Source: Clostridiales bacterium Firm_14
GTDB lineage: Bacteria; Bacillota; Clostridia; Saccharofermentanales; Saccharofermentanaceae
Assembly: GCA_001604135.1 (NCBI GenBank)
Contig: LVAT01000005.1
Location: forward strand, 124,001-188,000
Reading direction: 5' to 3'
Length of the DNA stretch: 64,000 nucleotides
Shown: positions 42,340 through 50,691 of the stretch, one piece after another
Position numbering within the stretch: position 1 is the stretch's first letter
Layout: every line of letters starts with the position of its first letter
Made by a program: the position numbers and the translations under genes
The notes under the pieces: model-generated
What the model was told of the DNA's origin: nothing
Seen by the model: the letters and a program-made list of their open reading frames with translations, nothing else
Databases searched by the model: none

Positions 42340-44463
42340 ATGGATGCCGCTTATTTATTCAACAAGGGCGAGAACTATATGAGCTATAAGTTCCTCGGAG
42401 CTCATCCCTATGAGGATGAGAACGGGAAGGGCTTCATATTCCGCGTTTGGGCTCCTAATGCAAGAATGGTCAGCGTAATGGGTGATTTCAATGACTGGGA
42501 TCCCAACGACTGCCAGATGTTTATGCTCGGTAAGACCGGCATTTGGGAACAGAAGGTTCCTGATGCTCAGCAGTGGGACAGGTACAAGTACAGAGTCATC
42601 GGTGCTGACAACAGGATCTACGAGAAGGGAGACCCCTTCGCAAGACATTTCGAGACTAGACCTAATAATGCGTCCATCATCTACGACCCTGACGATTATA
42701 TCTGGAACGATGATGAATTCTGCAAGAACCGTACGGATGCATTGGCACCTAAGCCGATCAACATCTATGAGATCCACTTAGGCTCATGGAGAAGACATCC
42801 TGACGGCAATTTCTTTACTTACAGGGAACTTGCGATAGACCTTGCAGATTACTGCAAGAAGATGCACTACACACATGTAGAGCTCATGCCCATCTTGGAG
42901 CATCCTCTGGATGATTCATGGGGCTATCAGGTAACAGGCTACTATGCCGTTACATCAAGATTCGGAACACCTGCTGATTTCAAGTTCATGGTAGATGTCC
43001 TTCACCAGAACGGCATCTCCGTTATCCTTGACTGGGTTCCGGCTCACTTCCCGAAGAACATGGAAGGCCTTGTCAGATTTGACGGCACTCCCTGTTATGA
43101 ATACGCAGATCCCAGGATTGGCGAGCACAGGGAATGGGGCACCTATGTTTTCGATTATTCCAAGAACGAAGTCATCTCGTTCCTGGTTTCCAATGCGGTT
43201 TACTGGATCGATGAATATCATTTGGACGGTATCCGCGTTGACGCTGTATCTTCAATGCTCTACAGAGACTACGGAAGACAGCAGTATATTCCCAACAGGT
43301 TCGGCGGCAATGAGAATCTCGAAGCGATCGATTTCTTCAAGAGACTTAACTCAACGATCCGCAAGAACTATCCTCATGCAATGCTCATCGCAGAAGAGTC
43401 CACGGCATGGCCCAAGGTATCGCACCCCGTCGAGTTCGGCGGTCTGGGATTCACCCATAAGTGGAACATGGGCTGGATGCATGATACTTTGGATTATTTC
43501 TCCACAGATTCTTATGCCAGAGCTTGGCATCACGATGAGTTCTGCTTCTCGATGATGTATGCATTCTCCGAGAACTACATCCTGAGCTTATCTCACGATG
43601 AGGTAGTTCACGGCAAGCATTCACTGATCGACAAGATGCCGGGCGATATCTGGAGAAAGTTCGCGTCACTCCGTACGATGATGATGTACCAGATCAGCCA
43701 TCCGGGCGGAAAGCTCAACTTCATGGGCGCTGAGTTCGGCCAGTTCATCGAGTGGCGTTTCTATGAGCAGCTCGAGTGGTTCTTGCTCGACTACGAGTCA
43801 CACCGCCTGCTCCAGAACTTCAACAGCGAACTTAACAAGTTCTACATCGAGAATCCCCAGATGTGGGAAGACGACCACACATGGGCAGGCTTCGAATGGA
43901 TCGCTGCTGACGACACGAAGAACAACGTGTTTGTTTACAAGAGATCCTGTCCGGATCCCAAGAAAAATGATATTTACGTAGCGCTCAACATGGTGCCCCA
44001 GCCTCTTGAAGGCTATGAGATGCCTGTATATGAGCTCGGCACATATAAGATCGTCTTTAATACTGACGACATGTGCCACGGCGGTTCCGGATATCCTACG
44101 GCTACTGATATGAACGGCTGCTTCGAAGCTATCGACGAGCCGCTAAATGGCAAGCCCTATAAGGTTAAGATCAACCTTCCTCCTTTGGCAGGTATCTTCT
44201 TCATGAAGGTTAAAGATCCTGTTAAGAAGAGGACTAAGAAGGCTGAAAAGGCGGAGAAGGCTCCTGCTAAAAAGCCTGCCGCAAAGAAGTCTTCTGCAAC
44301 GCCCGCTGCCAAGAAAACAGCTAAGACTGCTGCAGTGAAGGCAGCTAAGCCCGCTGTAAAGAAGGCAGTAAAGACAGAAGAAGCAAAGCCTGCGAAGAAG
44401 ACGGCGGCAGCAAAGCCCGCAGCTCCCAAGAAGGCTCCCGCTAAAACGAAGAAAACAAAATAA
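42340..44463 (+). CDS. glgB: 1,4-alpha-glucan branching enzyme with H1-like C-terminal tail
   Basis: 707 residues; the conserved part (about 1-625) covers the CBM48 domain (FLGAHPYEDENGKGFIFRVWAPNA), the GH13 barrel (HLDGIRVDAVSSML nucleophile region, MLIAEESTAW with the acid/base Glu, LSHDEVVHGKHS) and the C-domain. It makes alpha-1,6 branches in glycogen. The last 79 residues (629-707) form a Lys/Ala/Pro tail with about 28 Lys, strongly basic and unlike typical GlgB. First gene of glgBCDA plus GH13. The GGGAGG site is 14 bases from ATG. Confidence 0.95.
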   Translation: MDAAYLFNKGENYMSYKFLGAHPYEDENGKGFIFRVWAPNARMVSVMGDFNDWDPNDCQMFMLGKTGIWEQKVPDAQQWDRYKYRVIGADNRIYEKGDPFARHFETRPNNASIIYDPDDYIWNDDEFCKNRTDALAPKPINIYEIHLGSWRRHPDGNFFTYRELAIDLADYCKKMHYTHVELMPILEHPLDDSWGYQVTGYYAVTSRFGTPADFKFMVDVLHQNGISVILDWVPAHFPKNMEGLVRFDGTPCYEYADPRIGEHREWGTYVFDYSKNEVISFLVSNAVYWIDEYHLDGIRVDAVSSMLYRDYGRQQYIPNRFGGNENLEAIDFFKRLNSTIRKNYPHAMLIAEESTAWPKVSHPVEFGGLGFTHKWNMGWMHDTLDYFSTDSYARAWHHDEFCFSMMYAFSENYILSLSHDEVVHGKHSLIDKMPGDIWRKFASLRTMMMYQISHPGGKLNFMGAEFGQFIEWRFYEQLEWFLLDYESHRLLQNFNSELNKFYIENPQMWEDDHTWAGFEWIAADDTKNNVFVYKRSCPDPKKNDIYVALNMVPQPLEGYEMPVYELGTYKIVFNTDDMCHGGSGYPTATDMNGCFEAIDEPLNGKPYKVKINLPPLAGIFFMKVKDPVKKRTKKAEKAEKAPAKKPAAKKSSATPAAKKTAKTAAVKAAKPAVKKAVKTEEAKPAKKTAAAKPAAPKKAPAKTKKTK
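44224..44460 (+). repeat. Histone-H1-like AK/P tail coding region of glgB
   Basis: Low-complexity Lys/Ala/Pro/Thr codons of residues 629-707. Contains APAKKPAAKK, which also occurs in the GlgA tail. Confidence 0.85.
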
Positions 44464-44487
44464 GCTCATATACGGAGGTAGTTCATT

Positions 44488-45747
44488 ATGGCAAGAACTG
44501 AAGTCGTTGCGATGATACTCGCAGGAGGACAGGGAAGCAGACTCGGTGTCCTGACCAAGACGGTAGCAAAACCGGCAGTTCCCTTTGGAAGCCGTTACAG
44601 GATAATCGATTTCCCGCTCTCTAACTGTGTAAACTCAGGCATAGAGATCGTTGGTGTTCTTACGCAGTATCAGCCGCTGGCTCTTAATACTTACGTCGGT
44701 AACGGTCACCCTTGGGACCTCGACAGAAACAATGCAGGCGCTTACATCCTTCCGCCTTTCCAGAGTAATTCGGGCTCTGACTGGTATAAGGGTACGGCAA
44801 ATGCCATCTATCAGAATATGAGCTTTATCGATGACAACGATCCTGAATACGTTGTCATCCTTTCAGGCGACCACATCTATAAGATGGACTACGCAGCCAT
44901 GCTGAAGGCTCATATCGAGAAGAACGCAGACGCTACGATCGCCGTATATGAAGTACCGTGGGATGAAGCTCCCAGATTCGGTATCCTCAACACAAAGGAT
45001 GACGATGTTATCGAAGAGTTCGAAGAAAAGCCCGCCAATCCTAAGAGCAATCTCGCTTCAATGGGCGTTTACATCTTCACATGGAGCGTATTAAGACAGG
45101 CTCTTATCGAAGATGAAGCGAATCCGAACTCCAACAACGACTTCGGTAAGAACATCGTTCCGAATCTCCTGGCCCAGGGAAAGAAGCTCTGCGCATACAG
45201 ATTCGCAGGTTACTGGAAGGACGTTGGAACGATCTCATCCCTCTGGGAAACAAACATGGATATCCTTGATAAGCCTGAAGAGATCAACCTGGTCGACAGA
45301 TCATGGAAGATCTTCTCCAGAAACCCTGTTAAGCCTTCACACTTCATCGGCTCAGGCGCTAAGGTCAAGAATTCGGCTCTTACGGACGGCTGCCGTATCT
45401 TCGGCGACGTAGAGCATTCGGTTCTCTCTGAATCCGTAATCGTAGAGAAGGGCGCTATCGTTAAGGACTGCGTTCTCATGCCGGGTGTTGTCGTCAAGGA
45501 AGGCGCACACATCGAGCGCTGCGTAATCGATCAGGGAACAGTTATCGGCAAGGACGTTCAGGCAGGAAGCTTCGTCGAGGGCGAAGGACCTTACACCAAC
45601 CATAAGATCTGTTCAGAAGGTATCTGTGTTTTCGAGCGCGGCCTGACGATCAAGGAAGGTGCGGTCATCCCTAAAAACAGCATGATCGATTCTGATCTGG
45701 AAGTACCCGAAGATTGCAAGATCATCGAGTCAAAATTCAGAGCATGA
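44488..45747 (+). CDS. glgC: Glucose-1-phosphate adenylyltransferase
   Basis: 419 residues. The N-terminal [19 protein letters not shown] and [19 protein letters not shown], then [13 protein letters not shown], and the C-terminal left-handed beta-helix repeats ([16 protein letters not shown]) mark ADP-glucose pyrophosphorylase, which supplies ADP-glucose for glycogen. CGGAGG precedes the start. Paired with glgD just downstream, as in Firmicutes with a two-subunit enzyme. Confidence 0.96.
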
Positions 45748-45767
45748 GGTAAAGGAGATTAAGACAT

Positions 45768-46877
45768 ATGTTTAATAATGCGATGGGCCTTATCCTGGCC
45801 GACAACAAAAAGATATCTCTGGGCGAGCTCTCCAATCCTCGCGCGCTTTCCGCCATGCCTTTCGGCGGAAGATACAGGATCATCGACTTCATGTTATCCA
45901 ACATGGTCAATTCAGGCGTAAAGAACGTCGGACTTCTTACGTACAACAAGTATAAGTCCCTGATGGACCACACCGGCACAGGCGGTGCCTGGTCACTGGA
46001 CAGAAAGAATGATGGTCTTCACATCCTGCCGCCTTACGTTAACTCTGAGGCAACGAACATCAGCTCTGACGAAGAGCTCACGGGCGTTATCGACTTCTTA
46101 AGACAGTCCAGGACACCTTATGTTATCGTTGCAGGCGCTAACGTTATCCTCAACACGACATTCGATTCTTTCATCAAGTCACATGAGGAGTCAGGCGCTG
46201 ACATTTCAGTTATGTATAACCGTGACGGCACTAAGTACGGCAATCCTTCTTACATACTCGATATCGACGATGACGGCTTTGTTAGAGACATGCTCTACAA
46301 TCCCGCAAAGGCTACTTCACCTAAGTGCTCGCTTGGTATCCTGTGCCTCAGAAGAGACCTCCTGATCGATATCCTCGCACGTCAGATGGCACACGGCCAG
46401 AGCCACTTCGGTATCCACTCCATCGTTAAGATGTTTGACGAGTTCAAGGTGCACGGATTCGAGTATTCCGGCGTAGTCTTGAGGATCAACAGCGTTCAGA
46501 GCTACTTCAACGCTTCAATGTCACTTCTTACAGATTCGGTCCGAAATGACCTGTTCTGGAGCGGAAAGCCTATCTATACTAAGGTCAAGGACGAGGCCCC
46601 GACACTTTACTTCGACAACGCCGAGATGAGCGATTCGATCGTATCCGACGGCTGCCGCATCTATGGTAAGGTAGAGAGCTCAGTCATATTCAGAAGTGTT
46701 ACGATCGCAAAGAACACAACTATCAAGAATTGCGTTATCATGCAGGACGTTCACATTTCTGAGAACTGCCATCTCGAAAACGTTATCTTGGACAAGAACG
46801 CTTTCGTTAGACCCGGCGTAAGACTTGTCGGACATCCCGACTATCCTATTGTCATAGGAAAAGGAGCAGGTATCTGA
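45768..46877 (+). CDS. glgD: Glucose-1-phosphate adenylyltransferase regulatory subunit
   Basis: 369 residues, the shorter GlgC paralogue of Gram-positive glg operons. The nucleotidyl-transferase loop is altered: the N-terminus has NAMGLILADNKKISLGELS in place of the GGxGxRL loop, so it is regulatory rather than catalytic. It forms a heterotetramer with GlgC. It starts 20 bases after glgC with AAAGGAG upstream. Confidence 0.94.
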   Translation: MFNNAMGLILADNKKISLGELSNPRALSAMPFGGRYRIIDFMLSNMVNSGVKNVGLLTYNKYKSLMDHTGTGGAWSLDRKNDGLHILPPYVNSEATNISSDEELTGVIDFLRQSRTPYVIVAGANVILNTTFDSFIKSHEESGADISVMYNRDGTKYGNPSYILDIDDDGFVRDMLYNPAKATSPKCSLGILCLRRDLLIDILARQMAHGQSHFGIHSIVKMFDEFKVHGFEYSGVVLRINSVQSYFNASMSLLTDSVRNDLFWSGKPIYTKVKDEAPTLYFDNAEMSDSIVSDGCRIYGKVESSVIFRSVTIAKNTTIKNCVIMQDVHISENCHLENVILDKNAFVRPGVRLVGHPDYPIVIGKGAGI

Positions 46878-46879
46878 TT

Positions 46880-48577
46880 ATGGAAAAAAACATCAAAGTA
46901 TTGTTCGCATCGTCCGAGTGCAGTCCGTTCGTTAAAGTCGGGGGCCTCGCTGACGTTGTAGGCAGCCTGCCTGTAGAGCTTAATAAGCAGGGCGTTGATG
47001 CACGTGTTATTATCCCGCTCTACAAGAAGATCAAGGTTAAGTACAGCGACAAACTCCAGTTCCTCGGTTGGAAGATGGTTCATATGGGATGGAGGTCTCT
47101 TTATGCAGGCCTGTTCTCGTTGGAAGTAAACGGCGTTGTTTTCTACTTCATCGATAACGAATACTATTTCAACTTCGACCAGATCTATGTTGATTATGTT
47201 TTCGACATCGAGCGTTATTGCTTCTATCAGAGAGCAGTTCTGGACTTCATGGGCGACTTCATGAACTTCGAACCTAATGTCCTCCACTGCAACGACTGGC
47301 AGACGGGCATGATGCCTATGCTCCTTGACTGTCACTTCAAGAAGAACGGCTATCACACCAACGTTCAGACTGTTTACACGATCCATAACCTCAAGTATCA
47401 GGGCGTTCATTCAATCGACGTCGTAAGAGAGATGTTAGATCTCCCTGACGATTACTTAAGAGAGGATTTCTGCATCAAGGATAAGGCCATCAACTTCATG
47501 AAGGCCGGCATCGTATTCTCCAACTCGGTTACTACGGTATCTCCGACATATGCATATGAGATCATGACAGACTACTACGGCGAGGGCCTGAACTATACTT
47601 TGCAGAAGTATGCTTACAAGGTATCGGGCATCATCAACGGCATGAACGATCTCGAGTACGATCCTTCGAAGGATGACAAGATCCCGATGAAGTATTCGGT
47701 CAAGAACTACAAGGAAGGCAAGGCTGCGTGCAAGAAGTCACTGCAGGAGCAGCTTAAGCTCGAAGTCAATCCCGGTGCTCCTCTTTGCGCAATGATCTCA
47801 CGTCTCGTAGACCAGAAGGGATTAGATCTCCTGCTCTATGTTCTTGAGGAAATGCTCTACGACGGAATGCAGGTAGTAATCCTCGGTACGGGCGATCCTT
47901 ACTATGAGAGAGCTCTCGTAGACATCGCCAACCGCAATCCGGGCAAGATGTGCGCATGCATCGATTTTGACAGCGGCCTCGCTCATACGATCTATGCAGC
48001 ATCGGATATCTTCCTCATGCCGAGTATCTTCGAGCCCTGCGGCCTCTCACAGCTCTGCTCCATGGCATATGGTTCAGTTCCTGTAGTAAGAGAGACGGGC
48101 GGTCTTAAGGATACTGTAACGCCTTATAATGAGTACACAGGCGAAGGAAACGGATTCTCATTTGCCAACATCAATGCCCATGAGTTCTTGTTCGTTACCA
48201 AGTATGCTGCAGATATCTACCGTCATCATCCTGATGTATGGAACAAGCTCATCGAAGTCGGCATGAAGGGTGACTACTCATGGAAGAAGAGCGCTGGCGA
48301 GTATGCAGGCCTCTATTCATTGATCACAGGCATCCCGAGGGTCGAAGTCAAGCCTGAAGCTCCTGCCAAGGAAGCGAAAAAGGAAGCTCCGGCAAAGGCT
48401 GAGAAACCCGTAGAGAAGAAGGCTGAGAAGAAGCCTGCGGCAAAGAAGGAAACAGAAAAGAAGGCTCCTGCCAAAAAGCCTGCTGCAAAGAAGGCACCGG
48501 CCAAGAAGCCCGCAGCTAAGAAAGCTCCGGAAAAGGCCGTAGAGAAGAAGCCTGAAGAGAAGGAGAAGAAAGACTGA
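46880..48577 (+). CDS. glgA: Glycogen synthase with H1-like C-terminal tail
   Basis: 565 residues. Residues about 1-488 are a GT5 glycogen synthase (ADP-glucose dependent): KVGGLADVVGSLPVE, HCNDWQTG, LVDQKGLDL and MPSIFEPCGLSQL. The last 77 residues (489-565) are a Lys/Ala/Pro/Glu tail with about 28 Lys and 14 Glu. The APAKKPAAKK motif occurs twice in tandem here and once in the GlgB tail. The rest of the family ends near residue 480. It starts three bases after glgD. Confidence 0.95.
   Translation: MEKNIKVLFASSECSPFVKVGGLADVVGSLPVELNKQGVDARVIIPLYKKIKVKYSDKLQFLGWKMVHMGWRSLYAGLFSLEVNGVVFYFIDNEYYFNFDQIYVDYVFDIERYCFYQRAVLDFMGDFMNFEPNVLHCNDWQTGMMPMLLDCHFKKNGYHTNVQTVYTIHNLKYQGVHSIDVVREMLDLPDDYLREDFCIKDKAINFMKAGIVFSNSVTTVSPTYAYEIMTDYYGEGLNYTLQKYAYKVSGIINGMNDLEYDPSKDDKIPMKYSVKNYKEGKAACKKSLQEQLKLEVNPGAPLCAMISRLVDQKGLDLLLYVLEEMLYDGMQVVILGTGDPYYERALVDIANRNPGKMCACIDFDSGLAHTIYAASDIFLMPSIFEPCGLSQLCSMAYGSVPVVRETGGLKDTVTPYNEYTGEGNGFSFANINAHEFLFVTKYAADIYRHHPDVWNKLIEVGMKGDYSWKKSAGEYAGLYSLITGIPRVEVKPEAPAKEAKKEAPAKAEKPVEKKAEKKPAAKKETEKKAPAKKPAAKKAPAKKPAAKKAPEKAVEKKPEEKEKKD
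48344..48574 (+). repeat. Histone-H1-like tail coding region of glgA
   Basis: Low-complexity Lys/Ala/Pro/Glu codons for residues 489-565. A 30-base stretch encoding APAKKPAAKK differs from the GlgB copy at only two bases. Confidence 0.85.
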
Positions 48578-50691
48578 TGTCTGATAAGACACAGACTGAT
48601 TCAAGAGAGTTTACAAAGGCGCGGTGCATTCATGCATCGCGCCTTCCTGAGTACAGGCAGCCTTTTGGAGCAAGGCCCTGTGCTTCATATGTCGATATCT
48701 TTTTCGACACATATAAGGAAGCTTCAAACGTAACGTTCTGCTATACGTACGGACTTTATAATTTCACGTATCATGAAGAACCGATGTATTCGGTATCAGG
48801 CCTCGGAAGATATCATGTCAATCTCATGCTTCCATCTGAGCCGTCGATACTGTTCTACTGGTTCAGGTTCAATTGCCCGGGTGATCTTTCCGATCTTCCC
48901 GAAGGCCTTGGTGATAAGAATAATCCGTGCCAGACGCTGTATTATGGCGCAGGATCAGATACGAAGGACGGCGAAGGCACGCTCTATAACGATCCTCCGA
49001 GAGTAGGCGCTGAAGAGGATAAGTATCCTTACGCATTCCAGATAACCGTTTACAACAAAGATTTCAAGACGCCCGGATTCTTAAAGGGTGCCATGATGTA
49101 TCAGATATTCCCGGACAGATTTGCGAGGGATACCTCCTTTAACTATCAGAAGATGACATCGACCGATGACAGGTCTGAGCGAATATACCACGAAGACTGG
49201 TATGAGGACGTTGATACGAAGGGCAAGCCTGAGACAGGTTATCTTGCCTGCGATTTCTACGGCGGAAGCCTCAAGGGTATTGAGGAGAAGCTCGATTACC
49301 TGAAAGAACTCGGCATTACGGTCCTCTACCTGAATCCGATATTTGAGGCAAGGTCCTCTCACAGATACGATACGGCTGATTATCTTAATGTCGATCCCAT
49401 CCTTGGCGGTACGACGGCTTTCATGAGCCTTCAGAACGCCTGCAGGGAGAAAGGCATAAAGATCATATTGGACGGTGTATTCAGCCACACGGGCGCCGAT
49501 TCCAGGTATTTCAACAAGTTTGACAGATATGAGGGCGTGGGCGCTTACAAAGCCTTCGAAAAGGGCGAGGAGAGCCGTTTCCGCTCCTGGTATAACTTCT
49601 TCAGGAACAGCGACGGCTCAGTCGGCTACGATTCATGGTGGGGGTTCCCCGATCTCCCGAACATCAATGAGGATGACCTGGCGTACAGGAACTTCATCTT
49701 CGGCAAGGACGGAGTAGTTGATACATGGATCTCCAGAGGCGCATCAGGCTTCAGGCTCGACGTATCAGACGAGCTTCCGGACAGCTTCATCAGACAGATG
49801 AGGACCACGGTCAAGGAGAAGACGGGCGGAGAAGGTGCCGTCATCGGCGAAGTCTGGGAAGATGCTTCAAATAAGTGCAGCTACGGCAATTACCGTGACT
49901 TCATGCTCGGCAATACCCACGATTCAGTAATGGGCTATACATTCAGGCACATACTTCTGGATTTCCTCGCAGGTTATATCGACGCTGATATCGCAAACAC
50001 CAGATTCGAGGGGTTCCGTGAGCGCTATCCTAAGGAAGCTTACTATTCCATGATGAACCTCGTGTCCTCGCATGACGTTCCCAGGATAATGACGATGCTC
50101 TCGAGGCCTGAAGATACCGACGACCGTGACATCCAGAGAGGCTTTAAGGTCGATCCGATGTATTACGATACGGTATCGGCTTTGTCGAAGATGGCCTTTG
50201 CTTTCCAGACATGCTACATTGGCGCTTCCTGCATCTATTATGGCGACGAGATCCTGATGGAAGGATATAAGGATCCTTTCAACAGAAGGACTTATCCCTG
50301 GAACAGGGTAGATCAGAAGCAGCAGGATGCCCTTGCCTTCTTCAAGCGCGTGGCGAGGATCAGGACCGAGAACCAGTGCCTTAAGACCGGTTACTATAAG
50401 ACCCTTATGGCTGAAGGCGGCACATTTGCCTTTGTAAGATACCTTAAGGAGGGCAGGGATGCCTTCGGTAATGAGGCTTCGGGCAGCAGGGCCATAGTAT
50501 TCGTGATGAACAGGTCAGATAAGCCTGTATTTGTCGACGTAACGGAGCATTACGGGACCTATGAGTGCAGGAATGCCCATGACATATCTGACATCCACCC
50601 GGTATCTGAGCAGTTCGTTCTGGGAGGCATCACGGGCGGCACGAGGAGGACAGGGATCAGGCCGTTCGGTACCGCATTTTTGCTTTACTAA
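48577..50691 (+). CDS. Glycoside hydrolase family 13 alpha-glucanase (neopullulanase-like)
   Basis: 704 residues, start overlapping the glgA stop (TGATG). An N-terminal beta domain (about 1-150) precedes a GH13 barrel beginning YQIFPDRFAR. Catalytic residues are in GFRLDVSDEL (Asp nucleophile), VIGEVWEDA (Glu acid/base) and SSHDVPRIM (third Asp). YCDFYGGSLKG-type insertion (here LACDFYGGSLKGIEEKLDYL) is typical of the neopullulanase/maltogenic group. No signal peptide is seen, so it is cytoplasmic and likely trims glycogen or maltodextrins. The exact bond specificity is not deduced. Confidence 0.9.
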   Translation: MSDKTQTDSREFTKARCIHASRLPEYRQPFGARPCASYVDIFFDTYKEASNVTFCYTYGLYNFTYHEEPMYSVSGLGRYHVNLMLPSEPSILFYWFRFNCPGDLSDLPEGLGDKNNPCQTLYYGAGSDTKDGEGTLYNDPPRVGAEEDKYPYAFQITVYNKDFKTPGFLKGAMMYQIFPDRFARDTSFNYQKMTSTDDRSERIYHEDWYEDVDTKGKPETGYLACDFYGGSLKGIEEKLDYLKELGITVLYLNPIFEARSSHRYDTADYLNVDPILGGTTAFMSLQNACREKGIKIILDGVFSHTGADSRYFNKFDRYEGVGAYKAFEKGEESRFRSWYNFFRNSDGSVGYDSWWGFPDLPNINEDDLAYRNFIFGKDGVVDTWISRGASGFRLDVSDELPDSFIRQMRTTVKEKTGGEGAVIGEVWEDASNKCSYGNYRDFMLGNTHDSVMGYTFRHILLDFLAGYIDADIANTRFEGFRERYPKEAYYSMMNLVSSHDVPRIMTMLSRPEDTDDRDIQRGFKVDPMYYDTVSALSKMAFAFQTCYIGASCIYYGDEILMEGYKDPFNRRTYPWNRVDQKQQDALAFFKRVARIRTENQCLKTGYYKTLMAEGGTFAFVRYLKEGRDAFGNEASGSRAIVFVMNRSDKPVFVDVTEHYGTYECRNAHDISDIHPVSEQFVLGGITGGTRRTGIRPFGTAFLLY

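Follow-up and report, generated by a model that had tools for sequence, protein, structure and literature searches.

The glycogen operon of Clostridiales bacterium Firm_14 lies within the 64,000-nucleotide stretch of contig LVAT01000005.1 analyzed here (the window), part of a 3.12-Mb genome. Its branching enzyme, GlgB, and its glycogen synthase, GlgA, both end in tails rich in Lys, Ala, and Pro. We judge the chances about even that these tails are disordered, that they bind an anionic polymer non-specifically (DNA being the likeliest), and that they keep the glycogen enzymes and the growing glycogen on the nucleoid. The catalytic and carbohydrate-binding parts of GlgA and GlgB would grip glycogen while the tails would grip DNA; glycogen particles would thereby be distributed over the chromosome and passed on to both daughter cells, not pushed to the old pole. 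The Lys-rich N terminus of PPK1, the polyphosphate-making enzyme encoded on the same contig, would do likewise for polyphosphate. DNA binding is suggested by tail composition and by the helix-hairpin-helix (HhH) domains found on GlgA of other lineages; nucleoid localization and an effect on partition are further steps that we infer.

GlgB and GlgA End in Lysine-Rich Tails

The glgB, glgC, glgD, and glgA genes and a gene for a GH13 protein all run in one direction within the window (ORF, open reading frame).

42340..44463, + strand: GlgB, 1,4-alpha-glucan branching enzyme with a C-terminal Lys/Ala/Pro tail (ORF; Pfam CBM_48, Alpha-amylase, and Alpha-amylase_C and NCBIfam NF008967 and TIGR01515, all over cut-off)
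44224..44460, + strand: GlgB tail, residues 629–707, 28 Lys, basic throughout (composition; kept in 67/68 complete GlgB of close relatives)
44488..45747, + strand: GlgC, tail-less internal control (ORF and Pfam; 0/71 complete relatives' genes tailed)
45768..46877, + strand: GlgD, tail-less internal control (ORF and Pfam; 0/72 complete relatives' genes tailed)
46880..48577, + strand: GlgA, ADP-glucose-type glycogen synthase with a C-terminal Lys/Ala/Glu/Pro tail (PF08323 and TIGR02095 over cut-off)
48344..48574, + strand: GlgA tail, residues 489–565, mixed-charge first half and basic second half, predicted disordered (composition, AlphaFold2; 75/75 complete relatives' GlgA)
48577..50691, + strand: GH13 protein of the same operon, tail-less internal control (ORF and Pfam; 0/62 relatives tailed)

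Judged by family models, the catalytic parts of GlgA and GlgB are ordinary. The models listed above identify GlgB as a branching enzyme. GlgA scores 255 bits against PF08323 (cut-off 22.7) and 528 bits against TIGR02095 (cut-off 328), and narrowly misses the equivalog NF001898 (597 versus 603 bits). GlgB residues are numbered from the ATG at 42340; Met14 (42379) is another plausible start.

A composition count confirmed that each tail contains 28 Lys, as the earlier note on this DNA had claimed. GlgB residues 629–707 (79 aa) comprise 28 Lys, 25 Ala, 8 Pro, 8 Thr, and 4 Glu, and GlgA residues 489–565 (77 aa) comprise 28 Lys, 19 Ala, 14 Glu, and 11 Pro, besides minor residues. The maximum number of Lys per 20 residues is 9 in the GlgA tail and 8 in the GlgB tail, compared with 7 and 4 in the respective catalytic parts. 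GlgC, GlgD, and the GH13 protein, described in the same note as lacking such tails, indeed have at most 3 Lys per 20 residues. The GlgA tail is predicted to be disordered: in an AlphaFold2 model the catalytic fold is confident to about residue 490, and the predicted local distance difference test score (pLDDT) is below 50 over residues 492–565 (25–34 in the tail), with no secondary structure.

The two tails share the peptide APAKKPAAKK, of which GlgB has one copy (starting at residue 641) and GlgA two (starting at residues 529 and 539). The two-base difference reported between the coding stretches holds for the first of the two GlgA copies (2/30 bases). The longest peptide common to both tails has 11 residues, a length reached in none of 500 shuffles of both tails; the shared peptide exceeds what composition gives. 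Recent gene conversion between the tails was considered as the explanation of the close match and rejected as unnecessary. Under the tails' own codon usage, a 28/30-base match has P = 0.035 when a single pair is compared and P = 0.068 when the closer of two GlgA copies is taken, so shared codon usage suffices and the match is weak evidence of recent copying.

The Tails Are Retained in Close Relatives, and Lysine Is Their Best Conserved Residue

Most of the relatives, at 83–99% GlgA identity, are Clostridia of the rumen and gut, with record names of the type Saccharofermentans sp. or Ruminococcaceae bacterium (AB4001, YAD3003, YRB3002, KHP2). The set comprised 77 loci; two at 43–46% identity and without a Lys tail (L159 and L160) were removed, leaving 75. 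With a tail defined as at least 25 residues with at least 20% Lys, and only complete C termini counted, tails were present in 75/75 GlgA and 67/68 GlgB, and in 0/71 GlgC, 0/72 GlgD, and 0/62 GH13 proteins. GlgB was not within the examined stretch in 7 loci, L102 was omitted from the GlgC count, and the GH13 count omits 12 proteins whose alignment ended early or whose gene was cut (their last 0–53 residues carry 0–6 Lys). Both tails are present together in 67 of the 68 relatives with both genes complete. The search for tail-less close relatives that the earlier note had called for yielded a single case, L117, in which GlgB alone falls below 20% Lys. Among genomes of the genus, all 21 GlgA and all 21 GlgB read were tailed, the window's own included; these loci overlap those of the close relatives, and the two sets are not independent. 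The retention of the GlgA and GlgB tails while GlgC, GlgD, and the GH13 protein stay tail-less supports nucleoid tethering. Misassembly, or a tail unique to this genome, was also considered and was rejected in view of the 75/75 tailed relatives. A separate observation concerns the GlgB tail of L098, which satisfies the definition but reads like out-of-frame Lys/Ala/Pro repeats (rich in Lys, Arg, Gln, and Leu) and is still basic (+18), through either a sequencing error or a real frameshift.

Both the length and the sequence of the tails change quickly: tails of close relatives span 51–139 residues in GlgA and 26–107 in GlgB, and the two lengths are weakly correlated (Spearman 0.27, p 0.03, n = 68, uncorrected for relatedness). 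The GlgB tail is basic throughout, with mean net charges of +10.6 and +9.5 for its halves (68 relatives). The corresponding means for GlgA are +1.9 and +8.5 (75 relatives), its first half being mixed or acidic (net negative in 12/75) and its second half above +3 in 75/75, even when the whole tail is near neutral. Aromatic residues are nearly absent (none in 68 GlgB tails, eight in total over 75 GlgA tails).

Lys is the best conserved tail residue. In six gap-free GlgA tail pairs of equal length, the conserved fractions were 0.98 for Lys, 0.92 for Glu, 0.88 for Ala, and 0.87 for Pro; in eight such GlgB pairs they were 0.93 for Lys, 0.77 for Ala, 0.75 for Thr, 0.70 for Pro, and 0.59 for Glu, all from few and non-independent pairs. 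Larger aligned sets, biased because the aligner favors Lys-Lys matches, gave 0.95 (Lys), 0.72 (Ala), and 0.74 (Pro) for GlgA (138 pairs) and 0.93, 0.75, and 0.74 for GlgB (61 pairs). The conservation of Lys above other residues, together with the uniformly basic second half of the GlgA tail, is further support for a nucleoid tether.

GlgA matches were present in 113 of 118 genomes sampled across the order. The GlgA frame is 547–632 residues long in 45/45 genomes of the family; in the 68 others it mostly has about 480–526 residues, the exceptions being truncated genes and 10 long frames. GlgA was read in 25 of the 45 family genomes (15 of the genus and 10 of sister genera), and all 25 were tailed. 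The 10 long frames of other families comprised seven without a tail, two with a Lys/Arg/Ser-rich extension (G035 and G051), and one with an acidic extension and a basic end (G062), so frame length alone overcounts GlgA tails. The extensions of G051 and G035 (L236 and L245), which belong to another family of the order, are Lys/Arg/Ser/Ala-rich and may be an independent gain.

In the 10 sister-genus genomes, GlgA was tailed in all 10 (14–30 Lys) and GlgB in three. The co-occurrence of both tails that the earlier note proposed to look for is close to complete among close relatives and patchy in sister genera. Because every sister-genus GlgA is tailed, yet only 3/10 GlgB, the GlgA tail is probably the older, the GlgB tail having been gained later or repeatedly lost.

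A Small Set of Other Proteins Is Tailed, Including PPK1

The motifs KKxAxKK and KKxxAKK occur at 22 and 29 sites in the genome, compared with 5 and 2 for the reversed patterns; tails with other motif spacings can escape such scans. Frame reading left eight plausible tailed proteins: GlgA, GlgB, PPK1, ParB, IF-2, two small H1-like proteins, and a sirtuin. The remaining sites were judged chance single motifs, and widespread tailing of many proteins was thereby rejected. Of the six tailed proteins besides GlgA and GlgB, four are linked to nucleic acid: ParB, IF-2, and the two small proteins, which have weak Hc2 matches.

PPK1 (L161:11692-14133, G000:C5) stops about 6 kb short of the window and directly follows a Ppx/GppA-type gene. 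It contains four PP_kinase Pfam domains and scores 861 bits against TIGR03705 (cut-off 466). Its tail is N-terminal. The PPK1 N terminus is Lys-rich in 21/21 genus loci with a complete start, with at least 50 residues and 13–30 Lys in 14 of them; lengths were counted from the first Met of the frame, and L169, whose N terminus is missing, was omitted. The N terminus has 5–19 Lys and is more acidic in 10 sister-genus loci, and has 0–4 Lys in 8 loci of other families. One member of the genus (G022, 90% complete) has no GlgA or PPK1 match and a weak amylase-type GlgB match; both storage systems have perhaps been lost together, or the assembly has a gap.

The N-terminal Lys/Ala/Pro tail of ParB (L204, G000:C16 near 82461) is about 75 residues long and recurs in G005 (L218) and G007 (L208); IF-2, identified by Pfam, is likewise tailed at its N terminus. 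The two small Lys/Ala/Pro-rich proteins (L161:4614-5120 and L201) have a short C-terminal domain and sub-threshold Hc2 matches, one also matching DUF6465; both are candidate nucleoid proteins of the genus. The Sir2-type deacetylase (L198, G000:C7 near 51919; also G007, L206) has a C-terminal Lys-rich tail; the lysines of the other tails could recruit this enzyme or be its substrates. For relatives the tally is a lower bound, being drawn from 20 chosen regions of six genomes. It includes a Pfam-identified trigger factor with a C-terminal Lys/Ala/Pro tail in two relatives (L211 and L212; G018 and G002). The same two genomes also encode very Lys-rich proteins (L209, L213, and L221; up to 26% Lys), predicted by eye to be lipoproteins.

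GlgA of Some Other Lineages Carries a Helix-Hairpin-Helix at the Same End

In a phylum-wide sample of 398 genomes, 220 had a GlgA match at the cut-off used. Among the matches listed there were 19 places, the window aside, with a GlgA frame of at least 532 residues, and 17 of these were read (G226 and G214 were left out). In eight of the 17 the catalytic domain, with a linker or without one, is followed by a ComEA-like HhH; the other nine have short ends. HHH_3 exceeded its cut-off of 27 bits in all seven HhH-bearing GlgA scanned (58–79 bits; the eighth, L247, was outside the scan). For the L254 protein, the one scanned against these two models, TIGR00426 was reached (54.6 versus 53.1) and the whole-protein comE model TIGR01259 was not (60.6 versus 152). 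Loci of the same phylum with a C-terminal ComEA-type HhH on GlgA are L249, L251–L256, L276, L277, and L279. GlgA of L276 (G425) runs on for about 200 residues past the HhH, a part that may be DUF4912-like. In an AlphaFold2 model built from a shallow alignment, the HhH part of GlgA is helical with pLDDT of about 60–92, the overall model being poor (mean 65). GlgB was found in seven of the 10 HhH genomes, and none of the seven ends in an HhH or a Lys tail.

A single enzyme bearing either of two unrelated DNA-binding designs at the same end would make a strong case for convergence. We suggest, tentatively and with somewhat less assurance than for the nucleoid tether proposed above, that glycogen synthesis is chromosome-anchored in several Bacillota lineages and that GlgA gained a C-terminal DNA-binding module more than once, as an H1-like tail and as a ComEA-type HhH. 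GlgB and PPK1 would be likewise tagged in the genus, so that carbon and phosphate stores would be positioned and inherited with the nucleoid.

The Tails Resemble Tethers of Other Storage Granules

PhaF, a phasin of Pseudomonas polyhydroxyalkanoate (PHA) granules whose C terminus is thought to bind DNA, likewise has an H1-like disordered C-terminal Lys/Ala/Pro tail on a storage-granule protein. PhaF is, however, a structural phasin of a polyester granule, whereas here the tail sits on the polymerizing enzymes of a polysaccharide. AlgP, which acts in polyphosphate granule spacing in P. aeruginosa, similarly combines KPAA-type repeats with a link to a storage polymer, the same polymer that the PPK1 extension touches; AlgP is a separate protein with a 154-aa repeat region, whereas the tails studied here are shorter and fused to GlgA, GlgB, and PPK1. 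They share with PhaF/AlgP-type tethers a disordered Lys/Ala/Pro repeat tail with KKPAAKK motifs (disorder being predicted for the GlgA tail).

A further parallel concerns the two versions of GlgA. In the accessible text of a review of bacterial organelle positioning (PMC13052382), PhaM and PhaF bind DNA through a histone-like domain and PhaH through an HhH. The Lys-tailed and HhH-bearing GlgA would thus present the same pair of designs as PhaM-PhaF and PhaH, the histone-like tether of Ralstonia (PhaM) and the HhH tether of Caulobacter (PhaH) being likened to them by description. PhaM and PhaH are polyhydroxybutyrate granule proteins, whereas GlgA and GlgB are enzymes of glycogen synthesis.

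Chlamydia Hc2 and bacterial H1-like families (PF07382 and NF038053) are similar in composition and gave weak, sub-threshold matches: 24.1 versus a cut-off of 80 for the GlgA tail with NF038053, and, with HC2 (cut-off 40), 19.6 for PPK1 and 23.5 for a small tailed protein. Members of these families are whole DNA-binding proteins, whereas here the tails are on enzymes. Family searches of GlgA and GlgB in Pfam and NCBIfam, as distinct from alignment to PhaF or AlgP, found no phasin family at E 0.001 or better. Most likely, to judge from these sequence comparisons, the tails work like a PhaF/AlgP-type tether and are not members of those families.

Nucleoid tethering has been described for PHA and polyphosphate granules; glycogen goes unmentioned in the accessible text of the positioning review. 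In a review of prokaryotic glucan enzymes, 300,000 of the 445,374 characters were covered and contain no mention of lysine-rich, disordered, or helix-hairpin-helix. A literature search, with subscription papers mostly outside its reach, found nothing joining glycogen synthase, helix-hairpin-helix, and GlgA, or GlgA, GlgB, and lysine-rich; searches on glycogen and the nucleoid, lysine-rich glycogen enzymes, and Saccharofermentans glycogen found nothing on point besides PMC4836754 and PMC11046441. According to the accessible part of PMC4836754, the old poles of E. coli accumulate GlgA-GFP, less so in the wild type than in a csrA mutant, and polar glycogen is linked to the shorter replicative lifespan of the csrA mutant. 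A problem that a tether could solve therefore exists. With a DNA anchor of its own, GlgA would make the placement of glycogen a built-in property of the enzyme.

What the Tails May Bind

Four partners had been proposed in the earlier note: the glycogen granule, the nucleoid, polyphosphate, and the other tail. The nucleoid is favored and polyphosphate comes second, because four of the six other tailed proteins are nucleic-acid-linked, PPK1 is tailed, and GlgA in some other lineages carries an HhH. Direct binding of the tails to glycogen lacks sequence support, since aromatic residues are nearly absent from them. A tail-to-tail bond is unlikely to have been the original role, because GlgA is tailed and GlgB is not in 7/10 sister-genus genomes.

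Several observations weigh against nucleoid tethering. The GlgA tails are polyampholytes, with a net charge of +5 or less in 4/75 (L156, 0; L153, +1; L123, +3; L143, +5), and in two sister genera they are Lys-poorer (14–18 Lys per 70–96 residues). The PPK1 extension is short in 7/21 genus loci (23–40 residues, 7–11 Lys). In the order to which one HhH genome belongs, five of 13 genomes have an HhH-bearing GlgA, and a locus search found none in the other eight. HhH folds are not all DNA binders, PsbU being an example. The tailed sirtuin fits no storage role. Lys/Ala/Pro tails are common on bacterial IF-2 and, with trigger factor tailed in two relatives, a tail need not mean DNA.

The strongest rival ligand is polyphosphate, because PPK1 is tailed and Lys-rich sequences bind this polymer. 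The tails would bind polyphosphate made by PPK1, and GlgA and GlgB would be recruited to it or regulated by it in one mixed phosphate/glucose granule. The PPK1 extension in the same genome and genus and the Ppx/GppA-type gene directly upstream of ppk1 speak for this. In the accessible text of PMC12077175, Lys-rich sequences of P. aeruginosa EngA and SrmB bind polyphosphate strongly, and in that of PMC12345225, binding maps to Lys-rich parts of E. coli YihI and Rnr. The 9 Lys per 20 residues of GlgA and the 8 each of GlgB and PPK1 are near the 9 of EngA and SrmB. However, counts of 8–9 are borderline, since the same accessible part of PMC12077175 gives negative results for proteins with 5 and with 7 Lys, and the run of four Lys seen in EngA and SrmB is absent from GlgA, GlgB, and PPK1. 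Nor does an HhH on GlgA elsewhere have an obvious link to polyphosphate. We consider polyphosphate as the main ligand unlikely. Binding to the nucleoid and to polyphosphate need not exclude each other, because both granule association and DNA binding are described for AlgP.

A second alternative is that the mixed-charge GlgA tail and the basic GlgB tail pair up, forming a synthesis condensate that couples elongation to branching. The charge patterns are suitable, the more acidic part of the GlgA tail adjoining the catalytic domain, and both tails co-occur in nearly all close relatives (67/68). Pairing is nevertheless improbable: GlgA is tailed without a tail on GlgB in 7/10 sister-genus genomes, the tail lengths are only weakly correlated, and PPK1 is tailed as well. 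An equally improbable role, in our view, is a link between storage synthesis and translation through binding of RNA or ribosomes by the tails. This genome's IF-2 and the trigger factor of two relatives have similar tails, which would suit such a role, but DNA is the partner to which ParB and the HhH-bearing GlgA found in other lineages point, and no reason is known to us why storage enzymes should be ribosome-bound. Finally, near-neutral low-complexity extensions produced by repeat slippage, harmless or keeping the proteins soluble, would account for the fast turnover of length and sequence, the repetitive codons that favor slippage, and the GlgB tail missing in 7/10 sister-genus genomes, but are slightly less probable still given the conservation of Lys above other residues in gap-free pairs (few and non-independent) and the restriction of tails to few proteins, with none on the counted GlgC, GlgD, and GH13 proteins of the same operons.

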